Below are positions 259 to 10,279 of a stretch of DNA of 10,279 bases, one piece after another. The stretch is taken from contig JAFKFE010000524.1 in assembly GCA_017308345.1 (NCBI GenBank), forward strand, positions 1 to 10,279. The letters run 5' to 3'. The position numbers and the translations under genes were made by a program. Each line of letters opens with the position of its first letter. The stretch's first letter is position 1. The notes under the pieces were generated by a model. That model made no database searches. It had not been told where the DNA came from and was given only the letters and a program-made list of their open reading frames with translations. Origin of the DNA: Alphaproteobacteria bacterium. Its GTDB lineage: Bacteria > Pseudomonadota > Alphaproteobacteria > Rhizobiales > Rhizobiaceae.

Positions 259-474
259 CGAACAACCGGCCTGCTCGAGGCGACCGGCGTGCGCTTCGAC
301 CCGGCGTGCTTCGACAATGCCGCCTGGATGCCGGGCCAAGGCTCCTGTTGCTGCTACATAGCGCTGCACAACCGCTTGGCCGACTGTCCGTTCAGCCTGC
401 GGAAAACACGTGCAGTTCGCCGCCCGCTTCGTCGATCGCAGCGCGCAGCCCGGCTTCCGGCTCGCTGTCGGTGA
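226..474 (+). pseudogene. Coding-like remnant of unknown family (Cys-rich)
   Basis: The frame is open from just after a TAG at 223-225 to a stop at 472-474. Between about 256 and 400 it has the strong third-position G/C preference of the real genes in this window. The peptide there includes LLEATGVRFDPACFDNAAW followed by MPGQGSCCCYIALHNRLADC, with a Cys cluster that does not look like random translation. There is no convincing start: only a GTG at 289 with no Shine-Dalgarno sequence. From 392 onward the frame lies antisense to the end of the DeoR gene and turns Arg-rich, as shadow frames do. The best reading is the tail end of a decayed or rearranged gene between two convergent genes. A short functional protein is less likely. 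I do not recognise the family. Confidence 0.3.
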
Positions 475-1180
475 CGACGTCGGAGATTTCGTTGAGCGCG
501 CAGACGCGCTCCAGGCCGCTGCGGCCGAACTTGTCGTTGGTGACGACCAGCATCGTCGACAGCGACCGCCTCATCATCGCCCGCTTCACCGCCGCCGCGC
601 CCGAGATCATGTCGCTCGGCCCCTCGGCGTTCAGCGCCGTGGCGCCGATGATGGCGACGTCGGCGTTGTAGCGGCGCACGAATTCGACCGTATCCTCGCC
701 GAGCACCGCGGCCTCGCGGCTGTCATAGGTGCCGGGGCAAAGGATGACGCGGAAGCCGGGATTGGCGCCGGCCACCGAGGCGACGCCGATGGAGTTGGTG
801 ATGATCGTCAGGTCCCGGCCGTGCTGCGAGAGGCTGCGCGCCACCTCATAGGTGGTCGACCCGCCGTCGATCATCACGATGCTGCCTTTCTCGATAAGCC
901 CGGCCGCGCCACGCCCGATGCGGGCCCGCTCCTCGACCATGGTGAGGCCGCGTTCGGTAATCACCGGTTCCGACGTCACCAGCGAAATGGTGGCGCCGCC
1001 ATAGGTGCGGTTGATGAGCCCCGCTTCGCCAAGCTCGATGAGGTCGCGGCGGATGGTCTCGCCGGCGACCCCGATGCGCCGGGCAAGCTTCGAGATGCGG
1101 ATCGAGGCCGAGCGCCGGACCTCAGACAGGATCAGCTCATGTCGCTCCTTCTTCGTCAGTCGACCCGTCTCGATATTCAT
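392..1180 (-). CDS. DeoR-family transcriptional regulator
   Basis: This 262-residue protein has a DeoR-type N-terminal winged helix-turn-helix (about 9-62, recognition part GVAGETIRRDLIEL and wing INRTYGGA) and a C-terminal DeoRC effector domain. That domain shows the phosphosugar-binding landmarks DGGSTT (105-110), TNS (128-130), GATALNAEG (179-187) and VTNDKFGRSG (213-222). Members usually repress sugar or polyol catabolic genes and are released by a phosphorylated sugar. The effector here is unknown. I chose the ATG at 1180 because AAGGAAG lies about 6 nt upstream and it gives the family's usual length of about 250-260 residues. An open frame continues upstream to 1309, but only through intergenic repeat sequence. 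The gene follows the PuuB-like gene on the same strand after 164 bp, and converges on the ABC fragment. It may control that left-hand transporter or genes outside the window. Confidence 0.9.
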   Translation of the reverse strand: MNIETGRLTKKERHELILSEVRRSASIRISKLARRIGVAGETIRRDLIELGEAGLINRTYGGATISLVTSEPVITERGLTMVEERARIGRGAAGLIEKGSIVMIDGGSTTYEVARSLSQHGRDLTIITNSIGVASVAGANPGFRVILCPGTYDSREAAVLGEDTVEFVRRYNADVAIIGATALNAEGPSDMISGAAAVKRAMMRRSLSTMLVVTNDKFGRSGLERVCALNEISDVVTDSEPEAGLRAAIDEAGGELHVFSAG

Positions 1181-1192
1181 CGGTCTTCCTTC

Positions 1193-1210
1193 TCGGGACT
1201 TCGTTCCCGA
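1193..1210 (-). promoter_or_regulatory. Perfect 6-bp dyad in the leader of the DeoR-family gene (possible autoregulatory operator)
   Basis: TCGGGA (1193-1198) and TCCCGA (1205-1210) form an inverted repeat with a 6-nt spacer. It lies directly upstream of the Shine-Dalgarno sequence of the DeoR gene. A weaker outer pair, CGGTCTT (1181-1187) with AAGACCG (1231-1237), encloses it. It could be an operator for autoregulation or an RNA hairpin affecting translation. A TAATGT (-10-like) on the minus strand at 1221-1216 is the only promoter hint, without a clear -35. Confidence 0.3.
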
Positions 1211-1250
1211 CATGGACATTAGACGCTCCAAAGACCGTAAAGCCAGCCTG

Positions 1251-1344: not shown

Positions 1345-2646
1345 TCAGTGTCCGAGGCGGTCTCGCATCGCGTACCACAGCATGCCGAGCACATAGAGCG
1401 GCCCGCGCAGCGCCGTGCCGCCGGGGAAGGGCAGCGGCGTCAGCGTCGAGAACAGGTCGAGCCGCGAGGCATCGCCCGTGATCGCTTCCGCGAGCAGCTT
1501 GCCCGACAGCGTCGACAGGATGACGCCCTTGCCGGAATAGCCATGCGCGAAATAGACCTCGCCATAGTGCCCGACATGCGGCAGGCGCGAGGTCGTCACC
1601 GACACCAGCCCGCCCCACGCGTGATCGATGCGGCAGCCCTTGAGCTGCGGAAAGGTCTTTTCCATATGCGGCCGCACGAAGCCGGCGATGTCGGCCGGCG
1701 GCGACGGCGTGTAGCGCTCGCCGCCGCCGAACAGCAGACGCCCGTCCGCCGACATGCGGTAGTAGTTGACGACGAACAGCGTGTCCGAGACCGCGACATT
1801 GGCCGGAATGACATTGCGCGCGCCCTCGAGCGGTTCGGTGGCGACGATGTAATTGCCGACCGGCATGATGCGGCTGTTGACGCGCGGCTCCAACCCCTTG
1901 AGCAGCGCATCGCCGGCCAGCACGACATGCCTGGCGCGGACCGAGCCCTTGTCGGTGAACACCCGGATGGACGGCTCCCGTTCCAGGCGGACCGCCACCG
2001 AATTCTCGTGGATGACGACGCCGGCGCCAACCGCCGCGCGGGCAAGCCCCAGCGTGTAGTTGAGCGGGTGCATATGGCCGCCGAGCCTTTCGTAGACCGC
2101 CCCCTGATAGGATGTATCGACCATCTGCCGCGCCTGCGAAGCCGAGAGTATCTCGACATCGGTGAACTTCATCACCTTGGCGAGGCACTCGGCCTCTTCC
2201 TCGAAGTCGCGCACATCCGACCTGCCGACCGCGCCGACCAGATGGCCGGTCAGGCGCAAGTCGCACGAGATGCCGTGGCGCTCGATGATGTCGAGCACCA
2301 GCTCCCGCGCCTCGAAGGCCAGGTCGAAAAGCGCCTTTGCCCGTTCCGGCCCGAACGTCTTGACCAGGCCCCTGGAGCCCTTGCGCAGGCCGGGGATCAT
2401 CTGGCCGCCATTGCGACCCGAGGCCCCCCAGCCGATCTTGCCGCCCTCGAGCAGCACCACCTTCAGGCCGCGCTCGGCGGCATGAAGCGCCGCCGAAAGC
2501 CCCGTGCAGCCGCCGCCGACGACAACCAGATCGGCCTCGACGTCGCCCGCAAGCGCCGGATGGTCCGGCGCCGGATTGGCGGTGGCCACATAATAGGATT
2601 TGCCGATATCGAGACCGGAATTGAAACCTGTCGAGTGCGAAGCCAT
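1345..2646 (-). CDS. FAD-dependent oxidoreductase, gamma-glutamylputrescine oxidoreductase (PuuB)-like
   Basis: This 433-residue D-amino-acid-oxidase-fold protein is close to the 426 residues of E. coli PuuB. The N-terminal dinucleotide-binding motif GGGCTG (44-49) follows a short beta strand, with the ribose-binding Glu at E67. The signature GWGASGRNGGQ (72-82) is typical of PuuB-type amine oxidases. GGHMHPLNY (189-197) and the C-terminal flavin-contact segment GYSGKGV (369-375) are also present. In the Puu pathway the enzyme oxidises gamma-glutamylputrescine to the aldehyde, releasing ammonia and hydrogen peroxide. The start ATG at 2646 lies 2 nt after the stop of the ligase gene and has AAGGTG 5 nt upstream, within the end of that gene, which points to translational coupling. 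The frame is open further upstream to 3027 but overlaps the ligase. Other glycine/sarcosine/D-amino-acid oxidase activities are possible; the ligase neighbour favours a gamma-glutamylamine substrate. Confidence 0.85.
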   Translation of the reverse strand: MASHSTGFNSGLDIGKSYYVATANPAPDHPALAGDVEADLVVVGGGCTGLSAALHAAERGLKVVLLEGGKIGWGASGRNGGQMIPGLRKGSRGLVKTFGPERAKALFDLAFEARELVLDIIERHGISCDLRLTGHLVGAVGRSDVRDFEEEAECLAKVMKFTDVEILSASQARQMVDTSYQGAVYERLGGHMHPLNYTLGLARAAVGAGVVIHENSVAVRLEREPSIRVFTDKGSVRARHVVLAGDALLKGLEPRVNSRIMPVGNYIVATEPLEGARNVIPANVAVSDTLFVVNYYRMSADGRLLFGGGERYTPSPPADIAGFVRPHMEKTFPQLKGCRIDHAWGGLVSVTTSRLPHVGHYGEVYFAHGYSGKGVILSTLSGKLLAEAITGDASRLDLFSTLTPLPFPGGTALRGPLYVLGMLWYAMRDRLGH

Positions 2647-2648
2647 GG

Positions 2649-4031
2649 TCACACCTTGAGCAGCAGATGGTCGCGTTCCCAGGACGTCACGACGCTCTGG
2701 AACAGGTCGAGCTCGACGCTCTTCACGCGCAGATAGGTCTGGAAGAAATCCTCGCCGAGCAATGTTCGCACGGGCTCGCAGGCGGCGAAGCGGTCCAGCG
2801 CCTCCTCCATGGTTTTCGGCAGCGTGCTCTGGCTGCGATAGGCATTGCCAAAGGCTTCCGGCGAGCGGCTGAGCCTCTCCTCGATGCCGAGATAGCCGGC
2901 GATCAGCGAGCCGGCCATGGCCAGATAGGGGTTGGCGTCGGCGCCGGGCAGCCGGTTCTCGATACGGCGCGCGGCGCGCCCGCCCATCGGCACCCGGAGC
3001 CCGCAGGAGCGGTTGTCGTGCGACCATTCGACATTGGCCGGCGCACTGTGGTTCGGCCGGATGCGCCGGTAGGAGTTCACGTTGGGCGCGAACAGCGGCA
3101 TGATTTCAGGGATGTATTTCTGCAGACCGCCGATGAACTGCGCGAACATCTCGGTGTCCTCGCCGTCCTTGCCGGCGAAAAGGGGATCGCCGCTCTCATC
3201 GACAATCGACATATGCAGGTGCATCGAGCTGCCGGCCTGCGCGGCGATCGGCTTGGCCATGAAGGTGGCGTGCATGCCATTGGCCTGCGCCGCCTCGCGC
3301 GCAAGGCGCTTGAACAACAGCACCTTGTCGGCCAGCGCCAGCGGATCGCCATGCAGGAGATTGATCTCGAGCTGCGCCGTGCCGGATTCGTGGATCAGCG
3401 TGTCGAGCGGCAGGCCGGCGGCGGCCGAATGCGCATAGATGCGCTGGATGACCGGTTCGAATTCTTCCAGCGCCTGCATGTCATATGGGTGCTGCACGCT
3501 TTCAGGCCGGCCGTTGCGCCCGACAGGCGCGGTCAGCGGCCGGTCCGGATCGGGGTTGGGCGCGGTCAGATAGAATTCCATCTCCGGCGCCATGACCGCG
3601 CGCCAGCCTCGCTTGCGGTAAAGGTCGAGCACCGCCCGCAGCACATGGCGCGGTGAAGCCATCCAGGGCCGGTCGTCCATGTGGAAGGTGTCGGCGAAGA
3701 CATAGGCCTTGCCGGAGCCGCCGGGCGCCACGCACAGCGTGGAAGTATCCGGCACCATGCGCATGTCGGGATCCTGATAGGCAAAGCCTTCGTCGATGGA
3801 GCCGGAATAGCGGCCGTCTATGGCAACAAGGAAAGCGCTGCTCGGCAGATAGAGCGCCCGGTCTTCGAGCGACTTCAGCAATTTGGCCGCCGGCAAAGCC
3901 TTGCCGCGCAGCACGCCGTTGACGTCCGGCACAAGGCACTCGACCTCTTTGATCGCGTGCCGGGCCAGCCAGTTCTTCGGGTCGTCGAGGCCGCTCATCG
4001 GCGGCATGGTCGTCGTATGATTTTCAGGCAT
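2649..4031 (-). CDS. Glutamine synthetase family protein, gamma-glutamylamine ligase (PuuA-like)
   Basis: This 460-residue protein (E. coli PuuA is 472) has the full glutamine-synthetase catalytic domain. Metal/glutamate ligands are APEMEFY (E150, E152) and ESGTAQLE (E215, E222). The ATP segment is FMAKP...GSSMHLHMS (257-274, H271 and H273). Substrate and phosphate contacts are NSYRR (319-323), W336 with NR (340-341), RIENR (356-360) and ANPYL (366-370). The N-terminal VPDVNGVLRGK (34-44) is typical of PuuA-type members rather than GlnA, and the adenylylation-type tail of GlnA is not evident. Family members join glutamate to putrescine, isopropylamine, ethanolamine, methylamine or anilines using ATP. 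The neighbouring PuuB-like oxidase and polyamine-type importer favour a polyamine or related amine. I chose ATG 4031, 4 nt after the stop of the preceding gene; the Shine-Dalgarno sequence is weak. ATGs at 4007 and 3998 remain possible. Confidence 0.88.
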   Translation of the reverse strand: MPENHTTTMPPMSGLDDPKNWLARHAIKEVECLVPDVNGVLRGKALPAAKLLKSLEDRALYLPSSAFLVAIDGRYSGSIDEGFAYQDPDMRMVPDTSTLCVAPGGSGKAYVFADTFHMDDRPWMASPRHVLRAVLDLYRKRGWRAVMAPEMEFYLTAPNPDPDRPLTAPVGRNGRPESVQHPYDMQALEEFEPVIQRIYAHSAAAGLPLDTLIHESGTAQLEINLLHGDPLALADKVLLFKRLAREAAQANGMHATFMAKPIAAQAGSSMHLHMSIVDESGDPLFAGKDGEDTEMFAQFIGGLQKYIPEIMPLFAPNVNSYRRIRPNHSAPANVEWSHDNRSCGLRVPMGGRAARRIENRLPGADANPYLAMAGSLIAGYLGIEERLSRSPEAFGNAYRSQSTLPKTMEEALDRFAACEPVRTLLGEDFFQTYLRVKSVELDLFQSVVTSWERDHLLLKV

Positions 4032-4035
4032 TCGT

Positions 4036-5319
4036 TCATGTCCGTAAGAGAGAGAGGATCGCTTCGGCGGCCACATTCGTTCCGGGCTTCAGCGCCATCT
4101 GCGCTGCATTGTCCTTCAGGCGGGCGCGCATCGCATCGTCGGCCAGCAGGCCGAGGATCGCTCTCTCCAACACTCCTTCGGTCCAGCCGTCGCGGCCGAT
4201 ATGGCCGCCGACGCCGGTCTCCACCGCGCGTCGCGCATTGTCGTGCCCGTCCCAGCAATAGGGCATGATCAGCGACGGCACACCGAAACGCAGCGCCTCG
4301 CAAAAGCTGTTGTTGCCGCCGTGATGGATGAAGAGATCCGATTTGGCGACGACGGAAGGCTGGGGAAACCAGGCGTCGAGATAGACATTGTCGGGGACAG
4401 CGCGATAGGCGTCGCGCAAACCGCCGACATTGACGATGAAGCGGGCCGGCAGCCTGTCGAACACCGCCAGCATGCGCTGGATCAGGCCGACATCCATGGC
4501 GCCTAGGCTGCCGAAGCTGAGGTAGACCAGCGGCCCGCTGTCGCGCGGGAAGACCGGCACCTCGAACGGGCCTTCGGAGCGGACGCAGCCTTCGAGATAG
4601 ACGAAACGCGCCGGATCGAGCGGCTCGGCGCGCCGCCGCTTCACGATGGCCGGTGTCAGCAAAAGGTTGAGGTCCGGCGAAGCTTCCAGGAACAGGCCTT
4701 TCGGCAAGGGGGCAAGACCCGCCTCCGCGCGCAGACGGTTGAACCGCTCATGCGCCGGAGCGACCGCGGCCAGATAGCGGGCCTCGAAGGCGGCGCGGCC
4801 CGGATCCTCGGCGGCAAGGCCGGAAAGATAGGGCGGCACCTCGGCGTCGGGCAGTTCCGTCTCGGCGCAGGAGACGACGCGCACCCACGGGCAGCCGGCG
4901 CCGGCCAGCGCCGGGAACATGATGACGTTGTCGAGCACGACGGCGTCCGGCTTGAGCCGCGCCAGCAACTGCCTGAGCGGCGCCTCGGCATTGACCGCCG
5001 TGTCGACGATGGCCTGCCATGTCGGCGCGACATAGGTTTCGAGCTGGTCGACCGGGCTCAGCCGGAAGTGCGGCAGGTGGCGGCGCACGAAAGCCTGCCA
5101 GTAGCTCTGGCGCTCGCTGTCGCTCAGCGGATCGTCGGTCGGCAGCTGGTATTCCTGGAAGCCGTAATCGGCGAAGACGCCGGAAAAGCCGGCATGGCAG
5201 ATGAAGACCGGACGGGCGCCGCGCGCCCGCAGCGCCTGCGCGATGCCGACGCAATTGAGCGCAGCGCCGAAACTCGCTTCGGGAAACAGCGCGATGGTCG
5301 GGCTGGCTTTGCGCGTCAA
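4036..5319 (-). CDS. GT1-type glycosyltransferase-like protein (MGT/UGT fold) with altered active-site residues
   Basis: This 427-residue protein has a two-domain GT-B layout. The N-terminal acceptor domain ends near residue 255. The C-terminal donor domain carries VYLSFGS (265-271), WFPQPSVVAKSDLFIHHGG (317-335), EAL (341-343), FGVPSLIMP (345-353) and DGHDNA (357-362). GT1 enzymes move sugars from nucleotide-sugars to small molecules in the cytoplasm. Two usual residues look replaced in an ungapped by-eye alignment. The N-terminal catalytic His (G-H) position reads G18-A19, and the D-Q pair of the donor motif reads D357-G358. The start is TTG (5319), with GAGGA 6 nt upstream, 12 nt after the stop of the regulator gene; no in-frame ATG is nearby. 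It sits inside the amine operon, so its acceptor may be the amine, a conjugate of it, or a sensor ligand. It could be a divergent or non-catalytic family member. Confidence 0.8.
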   Translation of the reverse strand: MTRKASPTIALFPEASFGAALNCVGIAQALRARGARPVFICHAGFSGVFADYGFQEYQLPTDDPLSDSERQSYWQAFVRRHLPHFRLSPVDQLETYVAPTWQAIVDTAVNAEAPLRQLLARLKPDAVVLDNVIMFPALAGAGCPWVRVVSCAETELPDAEVPPYLSGLAAEDPGRAAFEARYLAAVAPAHERFNRLRAEAGLAPLPKGLFLEASPDLNLLLTPAIVKRRRAEPLDPARFVYLEGCVRSEGPFEVPVFPRDSGPLVYLSFGSLGAMDVGLIQRMLAVFDRLPARFIVNVGGLRDAYRAVPDNVYLDAWFPQPSVVAKSDLFIHHGGNNSFCEALRFGVPSLIMPYCWDGHDNARRAVETGVGGHIGRDGWTEGVLERAILGLLADDAMRARLKDNAAQMALKPGTNVAAEAILSLLRT

Positions 5320-5325
5320 GATGGG

Positions 5326-5330
5326 TCCTC
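5326..5330 (-). promoter_or_regulatory. Shine-Dalgarno sequence that decides the TTG start of the glycosyltransferase-like gene
   Basis: On the minus strand GAGGA is followed by a 6-nt spacer and then TTG-ACG-CGC. It lies one base after the TGA of the upstream regulator gene, so ribosomes finishing that gene could re-initiate here. No ATG or GTG in this frame lies near a comparable site. Confidence 0.6.
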
Positions 5331-5331
5331 G

Positions 5332-6270
5332 TCAGTCCGGCCGGCTGATCATGCCGAACAGCGCGGGAGCGCCGCGGCTGGCCGCTTGCGGCCGCTGGCT
5401 GCGCGACAGCCTCAGATGCACGCGAAGCAGGTCGGCTGCAACCTCATACTGCCGGCTTTCCAGATGGTCGAGTATGGTGAGGTGCTCGCTGAGCGACTGC
5501 TTCAACCGGAACACGTTGACGCCGGCATAAATGCCGGGCAGCCGGCGCAGCCTCAAATGATCCGACAGCGCGTCCGCGACGAAGCGGTTGGCCGAGCCGT
5601 CCGCGATCATGCCGTGGAACTCGATGTCCAGCCGCTGGAACTCCCTGGTGTCGAAGCTCGCGTCGGGCAATGTCGAGAGCGCTTCCATGCCCTGGCGCAG
5701 CGCCGCCGCCCGCGCGCCGTCGAGCCGGAAGCCCGGGGCAAGGATGGCGGCAGGCTCCAGCAGCAGCCTGAACTCATAGCTTTCGCCTTGCGCCTCCGGA
5801 TCGTCGGGGGCACGGCGAAACAGCCAGGATTGACCCGGCGCGCGGTCGACGAGATTCTCTTCAACCAGTCTCTGAAGAGATTTTAGTACCGTCTTGCGCT
5901 CCGCATTGTATCGCCGCATCAAACCGACGACGGTCACCGTCTGATCCAGCCGCCGCGCCGAGCGGTCGCGCAGGATCGCCTCGGCCAGCTCATCCTCGGC
6001 GGTGACGGGCAATTCGGCGGCGCCGCCGGCCTGCGCCGTCAGGTCCGCCACGAGGCGATAGCCCGTGGCGGCCTCCCAGCGCACCACGCCCCGTTCCGTC
6101 AGCAGACGCAGCGCCGCCCGCACCGGAGTCCGCGAAACATTGCAAAGCGACGCGATCTGCTGCTCGGGGAGATGCGCGCCGGGCCCGAAACCGCGCTGCC
6201 TGGCCACATCCAGGATCCGCTGCGCGAGATCGAGATGATTGGTGCGAGGTCGCCTGGCTGCCGTTTGCAT
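5332..6270 (-). CDS. GntR/FCD-family transcriptional regulator with two tandem winged-helix domains
   Basis: At 312 residues this is longer than usual FadR/FCD regulators (about 220-250). Residues 14-76 form a typical GntR winged helix-turn-helix, with recognition segment NVSRTPVRAALRLL. Residues 94-153 look like a second winged helix aligned without gaps to the first: SRTPVRAALRLLTERGVV against ERKTVLKSLQRLVEENLV. An all-helical FCD ligand domain follows (about 166-290). D215, H219, H263 and H285 fit the D-H-H-H metal-binding set of that domain. FCD regulators respond to carboxylic or amino acid metabolites. The start ATG at 6270 has AGAGAAG upstream. It is the first gene of the minus-strand operon and lies back to back with the importer genes, so it most likely controls both arms and itself. 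Whether it represses or activates is not visible. Confidence 0.88.
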   Translation of the reverse strand: MQTAARRPRTNHLDLAQRILDVARQRGFGPGAHLPEQQIASLCNVSRTPVRAALRLLTERGVVRWEAATGYRLVADLTAQAGGAAELPVTAEDELAEAILRDRSARRLDQTVTVVGLMRRYNAERKTVLKSLQRLVEENLVDRAPGQSWLFRRAPDDPEAQGESYEFRLLLEPAAILAPGFRLDGARAAALRQGMEALSTLPDASFDTREFQRLDIEFHGMIADGSANRFVADALSDHLRLRRLPGIYAGVNVFRLKQSLSEHLTILDHLESRQYEVAADLLRVHLRLSRSQRPQAASRGAPALFGMISRPD

Positions 6271-6305
6271 GACACTTCTCTTGAACGGACATGACCGGAC
6301 CGGTT

Positions 6306-6337
6306 TGGCCGATCACCCTTGCCAACGCAATCGGCCA
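6306..6337. promoter_or_regulatory. Perfect 8-bp dyad in the divergent region (candidate operator or leader hairpin)
   Basis: TGGCCGAT (6306-6313) and ATCGGCCA (6330-6337) are exact reverse complements separated by 16 nt. It lies 35-70 bp upstream of the regulator start. A smaller palindrome, ACCGG-A-CCGGT, is at 6294-6304. The right arm is part of GCAATCGGC (6327-6335), which recurs in the same orientation at 6401-6409 beside the other dyad. The shared word suggests a common binding protein, possibly the FCD regulator. Confidence 0.35.
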
Positions 6338-6366
6338 GATTCCGGAGCCGGCTGTCAAATTATGGA

Positions 6367-6396
6367 TTGACGTACTTTTTTGTGCAATAGTACTGT
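6367..6396 (+). promoter_or_regulatory. Candidate sigma-70-type promoter for the ABC importer operon
   Basis: TTGACG at 6367-6372 is a good -35. An 18-nt spacer leads to TACTGT at 6391-6396, a poor -10; TAGTAC at 6388 with a 15-nt spacer is an alternative. This is the most AT-rich stretch of the region. It would leave a leader of roughly 100 nt before the ATG at 6506. Position and -35 quality support it; the -10 is weak, which suits an activated or tightly regulated promoter. Confidence 0.35.
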
Positions 6397-6403
6397 CATT
6401 GCA
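6383..6403. promoter_or_regulatory. 21-bp dyad TGCAAT-N9-ATTGCA, candidate operator for the GntR/FCD regulator
   Basis: TGCAAT (6383-6388) and ATTGCA (6398-6403) are perfect inverted repeats with a 9-nt spacer, centred on 6393. They overlap the candidate -10 elements of both divergent promoters. The spacer contains AGTACT, itself palindromic, although off-centre. The arm spacing of two helical half-turns and the position between divergent genes fit a dimeric repressor such as the adjacent regulator. No experiment-based GntR consensus is matched exactly. Confidence 0.4.
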
Positions 6404-6414
6404 ATCGGCAACAA
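6387..6414 (-). promoter_or_regulatory. Candidate promoter for the regulator-glycosyltransferase-ligase-oxidase operon
   Basis: Read on the minus strand, TTGTTG (6414-6409), a 16-nt spacer and TACTAT (6392-6387) form a plausible sigma-70 promoter overlapping the dyad. An alternative is a perfect TTGACA -35 (6358-6353) closer to the gene, but it lacks a good -10 at 16-18 nt. Either would be about 60-110 bp upstream of the ATG at 6270. Confidence 0.28.
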
Positions 6415-6505
6415 AAGACCGGGGAACCGGATCGGCGCCGCGGCGGGAACCGCGAATGCGATCCGAAAAACGAAATTCGACGATCAACCGGAATGGGAGT
6501 CCGTC

Positions 6506-7570
6506 ATGACCGCCACCGCTTCGCGGCACCGCTCGTTCACAATGTCTTCAATCGCGCTCGGCCTCGCCGTGGCGTTTTCGGCGCCGGCCTCCGCCGCCGA
6601 TCTCGTCATTTCCAACTGGGATGGCTACATGGCGCCCGACGCCATGGCCGCCTTCAAGACCGCAACCGGCGTGTCCGGCGAGGTCGTCGTCCACGCCACC
6701 AACGAGGAGATCATGGGCAAGCTCGTCGCCTCCGGCGGCAAGGGCTATGACGTGGTCTTCGTTTCCTCGCCTTTCGCCGAGGTGCTGAACAAGCTCGGCC
6801 TGACCGAGCCGATCGACCACGCCAAGGTTCCGAACCTCGCCAACCTTTATCCGGAAGCGACCAAGCTGCCGCACGATGTCGGCAACACATTCTCGGTGCC
6901 CTACACCTGGGGCACCACCGGCCTCTGCTACCGGTCGGACCTGGTGAAGGCAGCGCCCACCAGCTGGAGCGACCTGCTGGCTCCGTCCGACGAGCTGAAG
7001 GGCAAGACCACCATGCTGGCGACCGACCGCTGGCTGCTCGCCGCCGGCCAGCTCGACAAGGGCTTCTCCGTCAACGAGACCGATCCGGCCAAGATGGCCG
7101 AGGTCAAGGACCTGCTGATCTCGGCCAAGAAGACCTTGCTCGCCTATGACGACACCACCTTCTATTCGAAGCTGGTCTCCGGCGAGGCGCTGCTGGTTCA
7201 GGCCTGGGACGGCTGGTGCAACTACGGCATCGCCGAGAAGCCCGAGATCAAATACGTCATCCCGAAGGAAGGGTCGGACCTCTGGGTCGATACGATGGTG
7301 GTGATGAAGGCGTCGCAGAACAAGGCCGCCGCCTTCAAGTTCATCAACTTCATGCTCGACGCCAAGAACCACGCCTGGGCGGCGCAGAACATCGACTACA
7401 AGGTGCCGAACAAGCCGGCGATGGAGAGCCTGCCGGCCGACTTCCTGGCCAAGTTCCCCAACATGGCGATGCCGGTCGCCGACCTGGTCAAGTTCGAGCA
7501 ACTGCGCGACGTCGGCGACGCGCAGCGCGACTATTCCAAGATCGTCAGCGAGATCAAAGCCGCGCAATAG
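6506..7570 (+). CDS. ABC transporter substrate-binding protein, polyamine (PotD/PotF)-like
   Basis: This 354-residue periplasmic protein begins with a Sec signal peptide: basic RHR at 7-9, hydrophobic 14-24 and APASA before a likely cut after A30. The mature part follows PotD. SNWDGY (36-41) holds the aromatic pair that brackets the amine. FSVPYTWGTTGL (129-140) is a family hallmark. W234 in QAWDGW matches the PotD Trp, and DLWVD (258-262) keeps the Trp and Asp that contact the polyamine. The segment matching the PotD TDDARE reads TDRWLL, so its Asp is kept but the following Glu is lost. That may change ligand range. I chose ATG 6506 because GGGAG is 6 nt upstream and the signal peptide starts there; the open frame upstream from 6380 is leader DNA. 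It delivers substrate to the two permeases downstream. Putrescine, spermidine, GABA-like or other amines are all possible. Confidence 0.88.
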   Translation: MTATASRHRSFTMSSIALGLAVAFSAPASAADLVISNWDGYMAPDAMAAFKTATGVSGEVVVHATNEEIMGKLVASGGKGYDVVFVSSPFAEVLNKLGLTEPIDHAKVPNLANLYPEATKLPHDVGNTFSVPYTWGTTGLCYRSDLVKAAPTSWSDLLAPSDELKGKTTMLATDRWLLAAGQLDKGFSVNETDPAKMAEVKDLLISAKKTLLAYDDTTFYSKLVSGEALLVQAWDGWCNYGIAEKPEIKYVIPKEGSDLWVDTMVVMKASQNKAAAFKFINFMLDAKNHAWAAQNIDYKVPNKPAMESLPADFLAKFPNMAMPVADLVKFEQLRDVGDAQRDYSKIVSEIKAAQ

Positions 7571-7592
7571 ACGGCGCACAGACCAGAGACGA

Positions 7593-7621
7593 CGGCCGAT
7601 GGCGACTGCCGCCGTCGGCCG
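7593..7621 (+). terminator. Strong intercistronic hairpin between binding-protein and permease genes
   Basis: Bases 7593-7604 pair with 7610-7621 around a 5-nt loop (ACTGC), giving a 12-bp GC-rich stem with 11 Watson-Crick pairs and one G-U pair. No T-run follows, so it should not fully terminate. Its place, just after the binding-protein gene, is where importer operons often carry hairpins. Such hairpins protect the upstream message and lower read-through, giving more binding protein than permease. The structure is seen; the effect is inferred. Confidence 0.55.
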
Positions 7622-7638
7622 CTGAACGGTATCGCAAA

Positions 7639-8514
7639 TTGTCCCAGACCAGACTTCGCTCCAACCTGCTGATGGCGCCGGCATTGGCCTGGCTGACGGC
7701 GCTTATGGTGGTGCCGTGCGCGCTGGTGCTGGCGCTCGCCTTCTTCCGGCGCGGCATCTATGGCGGTATCGACTACACCTTCACGCTGGAGAATTTCCGG
7801 CTTGCCGTCGACCCGCTCTATGCCGGCATCTTCCTCAACTCGGCGCGCATCGCCGGCACGGCGACCCTGATCGCCGTCATCATCGGCTACGCGGCCGCCT
7901 ATGCGATCGCCGCGGCGCCGCGCCGGTGGCAGCCGGTCTTCCTGTTCTTCGCCGTGCTGCCGTTCTGGTCGAATTATCTGATCCGCACCTATGCCTGGAT
8001 CGTGCTGCTCAACCGCGAAGGCCTGGTCACCCAGCTGCTGCGCTGGCTGGGCTACACGGGCGAGCCGCCTTCGATGCTCTACACGGAAGGGGCGGTCATC
8101 GCCGGCCTGGTCTACAACTACCTGCCCTTCGTGATCCTGGCCTGCTACGCGCCGCTGTCGCGGCTCAACCCGGAGCTTGCCGAGGCCTCGCGCGACCTCG
8201 GCGCTTCGGCCCTGACCACCTTTCGCCGCGTCGTCCTGCCCTTGACCGTCCCCGGAATTGCCGCCGGCGCCGTCTTCGTCTTCGTGCTGTCGATCGGCAA
8301 TTTCGTCACCCCGGCCTTGCTTGGCGGCGGACGCTTCCAGATGATCGGCAACCTGGTCTACGACCAGTTCCTGACCGCCAATGACTGGCCGTTCGGCGCC
8401 GCCCTGGCGATGGCGCTGATCGCCATCATGCTATTGGTGCTGATGGCGCAGGCGATGCTGGCCGATCGTGCCGCCGGCCGCGCCACGGAAGCCAGCGGAG
8501 ACGCCGATGGCTGA
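7639..8514 (+). CDS. ABC transporter permease, PotB/PotH-like
   Basis: This inner-membrane protein is about 291 residues if it starts at TTG 7639 (PotB is 275, PotH 317). It has about six membrane segments: roughly 12-35, 70-92, 98-115, 152-172, 206-228 and 252-272. LIRTYAWIVLLN (114-125) is characteristic of PotB/PotH. The cytoplasmic EAA loop, EASRDLGA...VVLPLTVPGI (182-207), docks on the ATPase. The start is uncertain. There is no in-frame ATG before 7672, which would remove the cytoplasmic N-terminus. TTG 7639 keeps a basic TRLRSN lead and lies 68 nt after the binding-protein gene, but its Shine-Dalgarno sequence is weak. An ATG at 7599 is out of frame and hits TGA at once. The gene forms a channel heterodimer with the next permease, whose start it overlaps by 8 nt. 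Confidence 0.87.
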   Translation: MSQTRLRSNLLMAPALAWLTALMVVPCALVLALAFFRRGIYGGIDYTFTLENFRLAVDPLYAGIFLNSARIAGTATLIAVIIGYAAAYAIAAAPRRWQPVFLFFAVLPFWSNYLIRTYAWIVLLNREGLVTQLLRWLGYTGEPPSMLYTEGAVIAGLVYNYLPFVILACYAPLSRLNPELAEASRDLGASALTTFRRVVLPLTVPGIAAGAVFVFVLSIGNFVTPALLGGGRFQMIGNLVYDQFLTANDWPFGAALAMALIAIMLLVLMAQAMLADRAAGRATEASGDADG

Positions 8515-9301
8515 GCGCTCCTCCGGCACACGGCGCATGCTCCGGCTTGTGCTCGTCCTGGTCTTTGCCTTCCTCTACATCCCGATCGCCGTCCTGGTGG
8601 CGCTCTCCTTCAACGCGGGCGGACTGCCGACGGCGTGGTCCGGCTTCTCGCTGAAATGGTACGCCTCGCTCGCCGGCAACGCGGCGATCCTGTCGGCCGC
8701 CCTCAACACGCTGATCGTGGCGGTGATCTCGACCGCGATCGCCACGCTGCTCGGCACGTTGCTGGCGATCGGCATCGAGATGCGCCGGCGGTACGGCAAG
8801 GGCTTGGAGGCCCTGATCTTCGCGCCGATGATCATCCCGGACATCGTGCTGGCCATCGCCCTGCTTTCGTTCTTCTCGATGCTCGACGTCACCATGGGAC
8901 TGCACACGATCATCCTTGCCCATGTCGTCTTCAATCTCGCCTTCGTCTGTTCGGTGGTGCGGGCGCGGCTGAAGAGCTTCGATTGGTCGATCGTCGAGGC
9001 CTCCGCCGATCTCGGCGCTTCCGCGCCCGCGACGTTCCGGCGCGTGACGCTGCCGGTCATCCTGCCGGCGGTGATCGCCGGGGCGCTGCTTGCCTTTACG
9101 CTTTCGGTCGACGAGTTCATCATCGCCTTCTTCACCGCCGGCGCCGGTCGCGCATCGACCACCTTGCCGATGCAGATCTACGCCATGATCCGCTTCGGCA
9201 TAACGCCGGAGATCAACGCCCTGGCGACCATCGTGATGGCGGTCAGCATCACGGCGCTGACGCTCTCGCAACGGCTCAATCGAGGGGTCATCGGCCAATG
9301 A
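8507..9301 (+). CDS. ABC transporter permease, PotC/PotI-like
   Basis: At 264 residues it has the same length as E. coli PotC. Six membrane segments can be seen, near 13-35, 61-90, 102-124, 132-152, 186-206 and 235-255. The EAA loop EASADLGA...VTLPVILPAVIAG (164-192) contacts the ATPase. FTLSVDEFIIAFFTAG (197-212) is the conserved post-EAA segment of PotC/PotI proteins. ATG 8507 has GGAG about 7 nt upstream and overlaps the end of the previous gene (ATGGCTGA); its own TGA overlaps the next start (ATGA). Such overlaps imply coupled translation and one-to-one production with its partners. It is the second half of the inner-membrane translocation pore. Confidence 0.9.
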   Translation: MAERSSGTRRMLRLVLVLVFAFLYIPIAVLVALSFNAGGLPTAWSGFSLKWYASLAGNAAILSAALNTLIVAVISTAIATLLGTLLAIGIEMRRRYGKGLEALIFAPMIIPDIVLAIALLSFFSMLDVTMGLHTIILAHVVFNLAFVCSVVRARLKSFDWSIVEASADLGASAPATFRRVTLPVILPAVIAGALLAFTLSVDEFIIAFFTAGAGRASTTLPMQIYAMIRFGITPEINALATIVMAVSITALTLSQRLNRGVIGQ

Positions 9302-10279
9302 GCGAAGCGCGCACGCTGCTTTCGATCGACGGCGTCTCGAAGAGCTTCGGCCGAGTGACGGCGGTCGACCGCGTCTCGCTCGACATCCGCGAGAACGAGT
9401 TCTTCGCCCTGCTCGGGCCCTCTGGCTGCGGCAAGACCACGCTGTTGCGCATGCTGGCCGGTTTCGAGACGCCGAGCGGCGGCCGCATCCTGCTCGACGG
9501 CAACGACATCGCCCGCACGCCGCCCAACAAGCGCCCGGTCAACCTCATGTTCCAGTCCTATGCGCTGTTTCCGCATATGAGCGTCAGGGCCAATGTTTCC
9601 TACGGCCTGGAGATGGAGCGCTTGCCGGCAAGGGAAATCCGCTCCCGCGTCGACGCCATCCTGGCCACGACCGAGCTTGTGCCGTTCGCCGACCGCAAGC
9701 CGGAGCAGCTCTCCGGTGGACAAAAGCAGCGCGTGGCGCTCGCCCGCGCGCTGGTCAAGCGGCCGCGACTGCTTCTGCTCGACGAGCCGCTCGGCGCCCT
9801 CGACAAGAAATTGCGCGGCGCCATGCAGCTAGAATTGAAACGGCTGCAGCACGAGGTCGGCATCACCTTCGTCATCGTCACCCACGACCAGGAAGAATCG
9901 CTGGTCATGGCCGACCGCATGGCGGTGCTGAAGGACGGCAGGCTGCTGCAATGCGGCACGCCGCACACCGTCTACGAGCATCCTGCCGACCGTTTCGTCG
10001 CCGACTTCATCGGCGTGATGAATTTCATCCCCGGCCATGCCGACGCCGGCGGCGTTCGCGCCGCCGGCGGCGCGCGCATTTCGGGAAAGCTCCCCGCGTC
10101 ACTTCCGCCGGACGCCGCCGCTGTCGCGGCGGTGCGCCCGGAGCGCATCAGGCTGTTCCCCGAGCCCCAGACCGACAACCGCGTCGCCGGCACCGTCGCG
10201 GCGCTCGCCTATCAGGGGCTGGACCTGCAACTTCATGTCCGCACCGCATTGTCGGAGAAGCCGTTCCTGGTGCGCGTCA
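9298..10279 (+). CDS. ABC transporter ATP-binding protein, PotA/PotG-like (3' end outside window)
   Basis: The first 327 codons are present; members usually have 350-380 residues, so only the end is missing. Walker A is GPSGCGKTT (40-48), the Q-loop is LMFQSYALFPHM with Q86, the signature is LSGGQKQR (138-145), Walker B is LLLLDEP (158-164), the D-loop LGALD follows, and the H-loop His is H196 in VTHDQEE. From about residue 240 begins the C-terminal regulatory (TOBE-type) domain typical of PotA, with VRPERIRLF. All catalytic residues are intact. The protein would work as a cytoplasmic homodimer beneath the two permeases. The start ATG overlaps the permease stop by 4 nt (ATGA), a strong sign of co-translation. 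The sequence fits the spermidine/putrescine class; iron or sulfate transporters have similar ATPases, but the neighbouring permeases settle the assignment. Confidence 0.92.
   Translation, partial: MSEARTLLSIDGVSKSFGRVTAVDRVSLDIRENEFFALLGPSGCGKTTLLRMLAGFETPSGGRILLDGNDIARTPPNKRPVNLMFQSYALFPHMSVRANVSYGLEMERLPAREIRSRVDAILATTELVPFADRKPEQLSGGQKQRVALARALVKRPRLLLLDEPLGALDKKLRGAMQLELKRLQHEVGITFVIVTHDQEESLVMADRMAVLKDGRLLQCGTPHTVYEHPADRFVADFIGVMNFIPGHADAGGVRAAGGARISGKLPASLPPDAAAVAAVRPERIRLFPEPQTDNRVAGTVAALAYQGLDLQLHVRTALSEKPFLVRV

Follow-up and report, generated by a model that had tools for sequence, protein, structure and literature searches.

Introduction

The closest described counterparts of the locus considered here are the Puu pathway of Escherichia coli (puuPADRCBE), which uses gamma-glutamyl as a temporary group, and the Pot-type importers PotFGHI and PotABCD. 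A review of bacterial polyamine use distinguishes five pathways, and its main text contains no word beginning with "glycosyl-" (PMC9397018). We analyzed a stretch of 10,279 nucleotides from an alphaproteobacterium of the Rhizobiaceae (contig JAFKFE010000524.1, assembly GCA_017308345.1), hereafter the window, in which the genes of a Pot-type ATP-binding cassette (ABC) importer diverge from those of a GntR-type regulator, a glycosyltransferase (GT1), a ligase of the glutamine synthetase family (GS) and an FAD-dependent oxidoreductase (DAO). The original prediction, made from the nucleotide letters, read this locus as a gamma-glutamylation module with an inserted glycosyltransferase. Comparison with related genomes reveals instead that the glycosyltransferase belongs with the importer, and is not an extra inside the Puu pathway, and that the GS–DAO pair is an optional part of the module. 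We tentatively propose that the module catabolizes an amine and may transiently glycosylate it.

Results

The glycosyltransferase is tied to the importer

Gene content was recorded by tblastn, with fixed identity cut-offs that we chose, in the best 80 of 569 loci confirmed in a species collection; these loci were anchored on GT1, which is present in each by construction. The GntR gene was found in all 80 (a count biased by the GT1 anchor), the gene for the periplasmic substrate-binding protein (SBP) in 77, that for a second glycosyltransferase (GT2) in 78, and those for two cupins, cupA and cupB, and an aldehyde dehydrogenase, ALDHa, in 71, 73 and 73, respectively. Where the importer-side flank was complete (n = 74), GT2 was present in 74 loci and SBP in 72.

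Because the 80 loci had been chosen by GT1, the association was asked again starting from SBP. An SBP orthologue (E ≤ 1e-90) is encoded by 31 of 101 related genomes, and all 31 have a glycosyltransferase, meaning in these counts GT1 or GT2; the window's own genome (G000), which is incomplete, shows GT1 only. A glycosyltransferase match occurs in 35 of the 101, and the four lacking SBP (G012, G022, G035 and G038) carry fragments only. Among 398 evenly drawn Pseudomonadota genomes, SBP (E ≤ 1e-80) was found in 8, and the identical 8 are glycosyltransferase-positive, with the two genes on the same contig and 2.4–4.3 kb apart. These SBP-anchored counts (31/31 and the same 8/398) contradict the view of the glycosyltransferase as an incidental neighbor. 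The glycosyltransferase thus belongs with the importer and, if anything, GT2 is more constant than GT1.

The original prediction had tied the glycosyltransferase to amine-type uptake and had regarded it as very likely co-expressed, which the GntR (80/80) and SBP-anchored (31/31 and 8/8) counts bear out. It had also held that the association would be incidental if homologous loci usually lacked the glycosyltransferase: the genomes with the importer did not lack one, and here the association stands, whereas genomes with GS–DAO often do, and there it fails. That prediction could not take in GT2, the two cupins, ALDHa and the UDP-sugar genes of relatives, all of which lie outside the window.

GS and DAO are an optional part of the module

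GS (460 residues; 2649..4031, minus strand; PF00120, Gln-synt_C, E 1e-104) and DAO (433 residues; 1345..2646, minus strand; PF01266, E 1.3e-73) are an accessory part. GS shares 35% identity with E. coli PuuA, and DAO shares 41% with PuuB over 421 positions. GS scores 200 bits against the PuuA equivalog model NF045547 (GGputSyn), below its curated cut-off of 650, and the name PuuA was therefore rejected; the NCBIfam matches shown for DAO belong to other families and all fall below cut-off. Comparison of GS and DAO with solved structures by sequence placed each at family level only. Since the PuuA, PotD and PotF models matched below their cut-offs, "PuuA-like" is right and "PuuA" is not, and it is at this "-like" level that the motif-based gene labels first assigned agree with the Pfam families and the E. 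coli K-12 comparison. No PuuD is encoded in the window; PuuD was not itself a query against the loci, and a haloarchaeal amidotransferase query was unmatched in the stretches inspected. That protein, from Natrialba, was considered as PuuD-like and rejected; it is called only a glutamine amidotransferase because BLAST did not match it to E. coli PuuD at E 1e-3.

GS (≥60% identity) was found in 28 of the 31 Mesorhizobium loci and in none of the 49 others, and three loci (L083, L086 and L093) have the module but no GS. A beta-proteobacterial locus (L143) has a distant GS–DAO pair, 41% identical each, convergent to GntR-GT1. GS orthologues of 82% identity or more occur in 50 of the 101 relatives, 27 with the module and 23 without the importer or an intact glycosyltransferase. 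We inspected 17 of these 23 (leaving out G023, G034, G041, G047, G058 and G059), and in all 17 the GS and DAO frames are full length or nearly so. GT1 remnants lie directly upstream of GS-DAO in 15 of the 17, five of them clear and ten short (about 35–88 residues, 39–63% identity); no remnant was seen in the other two inspected, G027 and G043. In G021, remnants of GntR, GT1 and ALDHa adjoin one another, the footprint of one deletion. The remnants indicate that GS-DAO outlives the glycosyltransferase: many Mesorhizobium genomes have lost the glycosyltransferase and importer part and kept GS-DAO. The notion of glycosyltransferase and GS as an indivisible unit is contradicted by GS-DAO kept without the glycosyltransferase and by the non-Mesorhizobium loci without GS. 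The frame of gamma-glutamylation with an inserted glycosyltransferase is not supported, as GS at ≥60% identity is absent from 49 of 49 non-Mesorhizobium loci and 23 of 50 GS genomes lack the module.

The natural-deletion loci are L059, L060, L063, L154–L159, L161–L163, L165, L168 and L169; these Mesorhizobium loci keep remnants of GT1, and sometimes of GntR or ALDHa, beside an intact GS-DAO. Separately, a DeoR/GlpR-type regulator gene follows DAO in the window (392-1213, minus strand). A gene of this type stands beside GS-DAO in 11 of 14 Mesorhizobium stretches with GS of 82% identity or more and no module; among the module-bearing stretches inspected it was seen only in G007.

GT1 and GT2 are divergent GT-B glycosyltransferases

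GT1 (427 residues, TTG start; 4036..5319, minus strand) has a GT-B fold without the canonical catalytic His and a Pfam match to UDPGT/EryCIII-like_C. It scores as a GT-B fold protein and a UDPGT family member and falls short of the MGT subfamily (TIGR01426, 115 bits, cut-off 260). Its best matches within its own genus, which named records identify as Mesorhizobium, are 94–99% identical. GT1 and GT2 share about 48% identity. In a tree of 54 rows, for which the tool warned of long branches such as L004_GT1, they form separate groups (support 100/99 and 82/91) whose inner groups match; for example, Halomonadaceae lie inside roseobacters in both. These separate groups with parallel inner topology point to an old duplication moved as one module, and the duplicated pair seems to have travelled with the whole of it.

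At position 19 of the aligned glycosyltransferases, which corresponds to the His column of UGT203A2, 27 of 49 sequences have Ala, 22 have Pro and none has His; Ala marks GT1 and Pro marks GT2. By contrast with the loss of this residue, the donor-site motifs (W317, Q320, H333, N337, S338, E341 and D357) and D130 are invariant in all 49. The usual donor signature "DQ" reads "DG" in all 49 sequences and also in two haloarchaeal rows; it is still DQ in two actinobacterial rows (L007 and L008). The closest solved structures are UGTs of spider mites, of which one was solved with flavonoids; entry 2iya is OleI. Of 8,000 candidates scored, at least 1,995 are relatives (E ≤ 1e-30), and the family extends to roseobacters, Halomonadaceae, haloarchaea and actinobacteria. 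Names in the 120 family rows listed say no more than "glycosyltransferase", "MGT family" or similar. As to the actinobacterial matches, the importer precedes the glycosyltransferase in two of three (L008 and L009, of L007–L009), with glycosyltransferases of 36% identity; L009 also has an aldehyde dehydrogenase.

Relatives carry cupins, aldehyde dehydrogenases and oxidases

In G007, the closest relative whose contig is longer (glycosyltransferase 99% identical to window GT1; locus L044), the importer is followed by GT2, cupA, cupB and ALDHa. Annotated plasmids of Pararhizobium, Shinella, Ruegeria and two Rhizobium show this order too. The incomplete genome to which the window belongs yielded no GT2 match. 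CupA and CupB are small EutQ-like cupins (from the Pfam matches of the Pararhizobium homologues), and ALDHa of the Mesorhizobium relatives is 32% identical to E. coli PuuC. Several Rhizobiaceae have a second aldehyde dehydrogenase in the place that follows GT1, several Pseudomonas have another FAD oxidase plus a cupin there, and the longest operons also have a PuuC-like aldehyde dehydrogenase (42% to PuuC) and an FAD oxidase.

Each module has two or three EutQ-like cupins, which are nearly as constant as the glycosyltransferases; in L002 (1866-2588), cupB has His where cupA has Ser. A saccharopine-dehydrogenase-like gene follows ALDHa in some Rhizobium-type loci and one beta-proteobacterial locus (L128 170-1450, L173 8279-9475 and L175 18043-18996), with weak resemblance to carboxynorspermidine synthase (28–33 bits for two).

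GS and a class III aminotransferase lie near the glycosyltransferase in Natrialba magadii and on two Sinorhizobium plasmids, and GS, a class III aminotransferase and a Pot-type SBP follow the module in the beta-proteobacterial locus L143/L173. The recurrence of such neighbors in unrelated lineages supports an amine substrate. L143 (1-9000) and L173 have both glycosyltransferases, and genes of DUF1302, DUF1329, MMPL and YCF48 types replace the Pot importer there.

Sugar-supply genes recur in the operons of relatives

An AmgK-like kinase gene, usually placed between cupB and ALDHa, was found in 27 of the 49 non-Mesorhizobium loci and in none of the 31 Mesorhizobium loci. Three module kinases score 223–245 bits against NF045698, for which the cut-off is 500, and are therefore AmgK relatives, not AmgK by membership; a second AmgK-family gene lies elsewhere in all 8 kinase-bearing genomes tested. 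AmgK itself is described as an anomeric (C1) kinase for N-acetylmuramic acid (MurNAc) and N-acetylglucosamine (GlcNAc) (PMC5371407).

Past ALDHa, some Pseudomonas, Halomonadaceae and roseobacter operons encode a free-standing protein that resembles the uridylyltransferase half of GlmU (GlmU-N). This pyrophosphorylase was confirmed in the operon in 9 of 10 stretches, which were picked because a pyrophosphorylase match lay near the module; the tenth, L153, has no module gene within its 4 kb and contains a frame of GlmU length. Most other pyrophosphorylase matches resemble ordinary GlmU. A Halomonas nucleotidyltransferase was considered as a molybdenum-cofactor-type enzyme, which was dismissed because GlmU models score far higher. 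Acting together, the kinase and pyrophosphorylase would convert a free sugar into a UDP-sugar. On two haloarchaeal plasmids, genes for a ROK kinase-like protein and a phosphoglucomutase come after those for glycosyltransferase, cupin and aldehyde dehydrogenase (Pfam, Natrialba genes), a predicted different route to UDP-sugar.

The binding protein is of Pot type with an altered pocket

The importer genes lie on the plus strand, and their products share 29–52% identity with the Pot proteins of E. coli K-12. The SBP (6506..7570; PF13416, SBP_bac_8) is 31% identical to PotF and 29% to a PotD fragment. It is followed by a PotB/PotH-like permease of uncertain start codon (7576..8514; PF00528, BPD_transp_1; 38% to PotB and PotH), a PotC/PotI-like permease (8507..9301; PF00528; 41–42% to PotC/PotI), for which the ATG at 8507 is a predicted start in a frame opening at 8468, and a PotA/PotG-like ATPase cut by the contig end (9298..10279; PF00005 and PF08402, ABC_tran and TOBE_2; 52% to PotG). 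The ATPase, although truncated, scores above the cut-off for the polyamine ATPase subfamily (TIGR01187, 362.6 bits against 355.6). Names PotD and PotF were rejected for the SBP, which falls below both curated equivalog cut-offs (NF007048, 132 bits against 582; NF007962, 120 bits against 636). It is nonetheless nearest to Pot binding proteins and not to sugar-binding ones. Alignments with PotD entries in the Protein Data Bank (PDB) show that the aromatic pocket positions and two Asp are kept, while the family-specific residues W176, W237 and N239 are identical in 97% or more of the sequences (n = 53). The SBP ligand is likely an amine.

Close to the ALDHa end, five Mesorhizobium loci (L044, L045, L048, L052 and L059) have another Pot-type importer that is more distantly related, with permeases of about 38–43% identity and, where seen, a binding protein of about 29–31%.

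A conserved site lies between the divergent arms

The promoter/operator-like site TTGACGTACT-N12-AGTACT precedes the importer arm (6367..6394, plus strand) and contains the perfect inverted repeat GTACT...AGTAC at 6372-6393. The family consensus between the arms is TTGACGTAyT-N12-ArTACT. Scores of at least 18 of 24 were reached by 73 of 86 intergenic regions and by 0 of 860 shuffles; the regions scored had also supplied the consensus, only base composition was preserved in the shuffles, and the loci are related, not independent. The 13 regions below 18 comprise 12 Pseudomonas loci and L004. In the window there is one match (0 in 200 shuffles), and scans of 11 genomes located exactly one site in each of 9 and no site in the other two; a reversed control pattern gave one match, in G016. 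The site is just upstream of the SBP gene in all seven genomes with SBP coordinates. Its repeat arms read GTACT/AGTAC in most Mesorhizobium loci and GTATT/AATAC in most others, the two arms changing together. The site is probably a dedicated operator for the module's GntR/FCD regulator (312 residues; 5332..6270, minus strand; PF00392 and PF07729). A sigma-70 promoter match on the minus strand (6386-6359) was set aside, with 1 found against 0.9 expected by chance.

Layout of the window

The window is one complete 10,279-base contig of a draft genome that is 79.9% complete, and the module is truncated in it for that reason. The two arms diverge, with the importer on the plus strand and GntR-GT1-GS-DAO on the minus strand. 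As first reported, the GntR–GT1 gap is 12 nucleotides (5320-5331) and the GT1–GS gap 4 nucleotides (4032-4035), and PuuC- and PuuD-like genes are missing from the window: family profiles detected no aldehyde dehydrogenase or glutamine amidotransferase among the nine window proteins scanned.

Discussion

From the computed gene content, conservation, co-occurrence, intergenic site, glycosyltransferase fold and residues, and the relatives' sugar-salvage genes, we infer each enzymatic step of a possible mechanism: glycosylation in catabolism, its reversal, an amine as acceptor and the donor. Our tentative reading, which we put at somewhat below an even chance, is that a GntR-controlled module catabolizes an amine and, in doing so, transiently glycosylates this substrate or an intermediate. 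The importer would bring in the amine, probably a diamine, a polyamine or a related compound, and GT1 and GT2 would use a UDP-sugar to glycosylate it or an intermediate formed from it. For a time the sugar would serve to protect the molecule or to mark it for recognition, much as gamma-glutamyl does in the Puu pathway, while the FAD oxidase and aldehyde dehydrogenases would oxidize the free end. The sugar would then be released and, in several lineages, re-activated by the AmgK-like kinase and the GlmU-like pyrophosphorylase. In Mesorhizobium the separable PuuA/PuuB-like pair would be appended, probably gamma-glutamylating the same substrate pool. In a more specific form, which is possible and which we consider doubtful, the glycosyltransferases that lack the catalytic His would be N-glycosyltransferases that tag an imported di- or polyamine, protecting it while the free end is oxidized and the sugar is recycled to UDP-sugar; the sugar may be of GlcNAc type, which would agree with the altered donor signature and with partners that resemble AmgK and GlmU.

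Several observations weigh against such readings. Two loci with a complete flank, L131 (Halomonas) and L143 (beta-proteobacterium), keep both glycosyltransferases with no Pot importer. Four SBP-positive genomes (G073, G096 and G097 among the relatives and G134 among the Pseudomonadota) lack GT1 and have a GT2-type match only, so the two glycosyltransferases are not strictly needed together, and the persistence of GS-DAO without the glycosyltransferase implies that glycosyltransferase and GS need not share one pathway. The SBP positions matching PotD Glu36, Tyr85 and Glu171 are not kept; as several spermidine-contacting positions are thus lost, the ligand may be something other than a polyamine. 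Among the identified module genes we recognized no glycosidase and no other evident deglycosylase. Kinase and pyrophosphorylase are each absent from the module in all 31 Mesorhizobium loci, and some modules with the kinase, for example that of Ciceribacter (G102), showed no pyrophosphorylase nearby.

Other explanations share parts of this evidence. The original prediction suggested that the imported substrate may itself be a glycosylated or sugar-like amine; the glycosyltransferases would then work backwards, using UDP to free the amine, or would rearrange sugars, and the released sugar would be processed by the kinase and pyrophosphorylase. Macrolide-type glycosyltransferases are known to be reversible, an AmgK-like kinase could phosphorylate the freed sugar, and glycosylated spermidine is reported from barley and goji material. 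However, the pyrophosphorylase, which makes UDP-sugar from sugar-1-phosphate, would be redundant if the glycosyltransferases already yielded UDP-sugar, the SBP is nearest to Pot proteins and not to sugar-binding ones, and the glycosyltransferase family occurs in roseobacters, Halomonadaceae and haloarchaea, for which plant glycosides are a less obvious food; we therefore regard this as unlikely. The main proposal of the original prediction, a single Mesorhizobium pathway in which the glycosyltransferase and then GS act on one molecule to give a glycosyl and gamma-glutamyl conjugate, would fit the 4-nucleotide GT1–GS gap, the frequency of GS in Mesorhizobium (28/31) and the beta-proteobacterium in which GntR-GT1 adjoins a more divergent GS-DAO pair (about 41% each). 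It is rather improbable, given that GS at ≥60% identity is confined to Mesorhizobium (0/49 elsewhere), that intact GS-DAO stands beside glycosyltransferase remnants in 15 of the 17 module-less genomes inspected, and that L083, L086 and L093 have the module without GS.

The glycosyltransferases might alternatively glycosylate an amine or aldehyde for detoxification or to make a product (a solute or conjugate), not a catabolic intermediate. Spider-mite UGTs, one with flavonoids, as the nearest structures and a UDP-sugar supply suited to a net sugar consumer would agree with this, but import, FAD oxidase and aldehyde dehydrogenases indicate breakdown, and no exporter was recognized among the recurrent neighbors inspected, although many single neighbors were left unidentified; we consider it improbable. 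Least probable of all, in our estimate, is that these are GT-B proteins that no longer transfer sugar after losing the catalytic His and that have a UDP-sugar-responsive or other role. Position 19, with Ala in 27, Pro in 22 and His in none of 49 sequences, is what such a loss would leave, yet the donor-site motifs and D130 are invariant in the same 49 and UDP-sugar supply genes are found in the same operons.

We searched the literature, with few subscription papers covered, and found no account of this module or of a bacterial pathway with a polyamine glycosyltransferase. The locus hints at an undescribed sugar-tagging of a nutrient before its breakdown. Transient glycosylation, if correct, would give bacteria a further way to break down amines, in addition to gamma-glutamylation, transamination, direct oxidation, dehydrogenation and acetylation, and would provide a function for a glycosyltransferase family with at least 1,995 relatives. 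Glycosyltransferases inseparable from an amine-type importer in the Alpha- and Gammaproteobacteria genomes examined would mean a catabolic use of sugar transfer. The operon is open to experiment: in Pseudomonas, Rhizobium and Mesorhizobium it has a single regulator and a single conserved intergenic site, and the natural deletions of Mesorhizobium, which separate GS-DAO from the glycosyltransferase part, provide ready comparison strains.

Among described systems, the Puu pathway shares with the module a PuuA-like ligase, a PuuB-like oxidase, amine-type import, a dedicated regulator and, in some relatives, a PuuC-like aldehyde dehydrogenase. However, the module has an ABC importer in place of PuuP and a GntR/FCD protein in place of PuuR, its conserved core consists of glycosyltransferases and cupins, no PuuD was found, and a close GS is limited to Mesorhizobium among the 80 loci. 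The proposed module would resemble the Puu pathway in its temporary group and oxidases, yet it is not a member of it. With PotFGHI and PotABCD the importer shares its four-gene make-up, 29–52% identity per subunit and the pocket aromatics and Asp residues, whereas its SBP pocket is altered, W176, W237 and N239 are family-specific and the gene order differs. Compared to UGT/MGT-type glycosyltransferases (UGT203A2, UGT202A2 and OleI), GT1 and GT2 have Ala or Pro for the catalytic His and DG for DQ, and they are encoded beside an amine importer. Finally, several operons resemble AmgK–MurU salvage in combining a kinase of the AmgK family with a nucleotidyltransferase predicted to give a UDP-sugar; in the module, by contrast, the kinase is one of two AmgK-family genes in all 8 genomes tested, the pyrophosphorylase is GlmU-N-like, and both are located in an amine operon.

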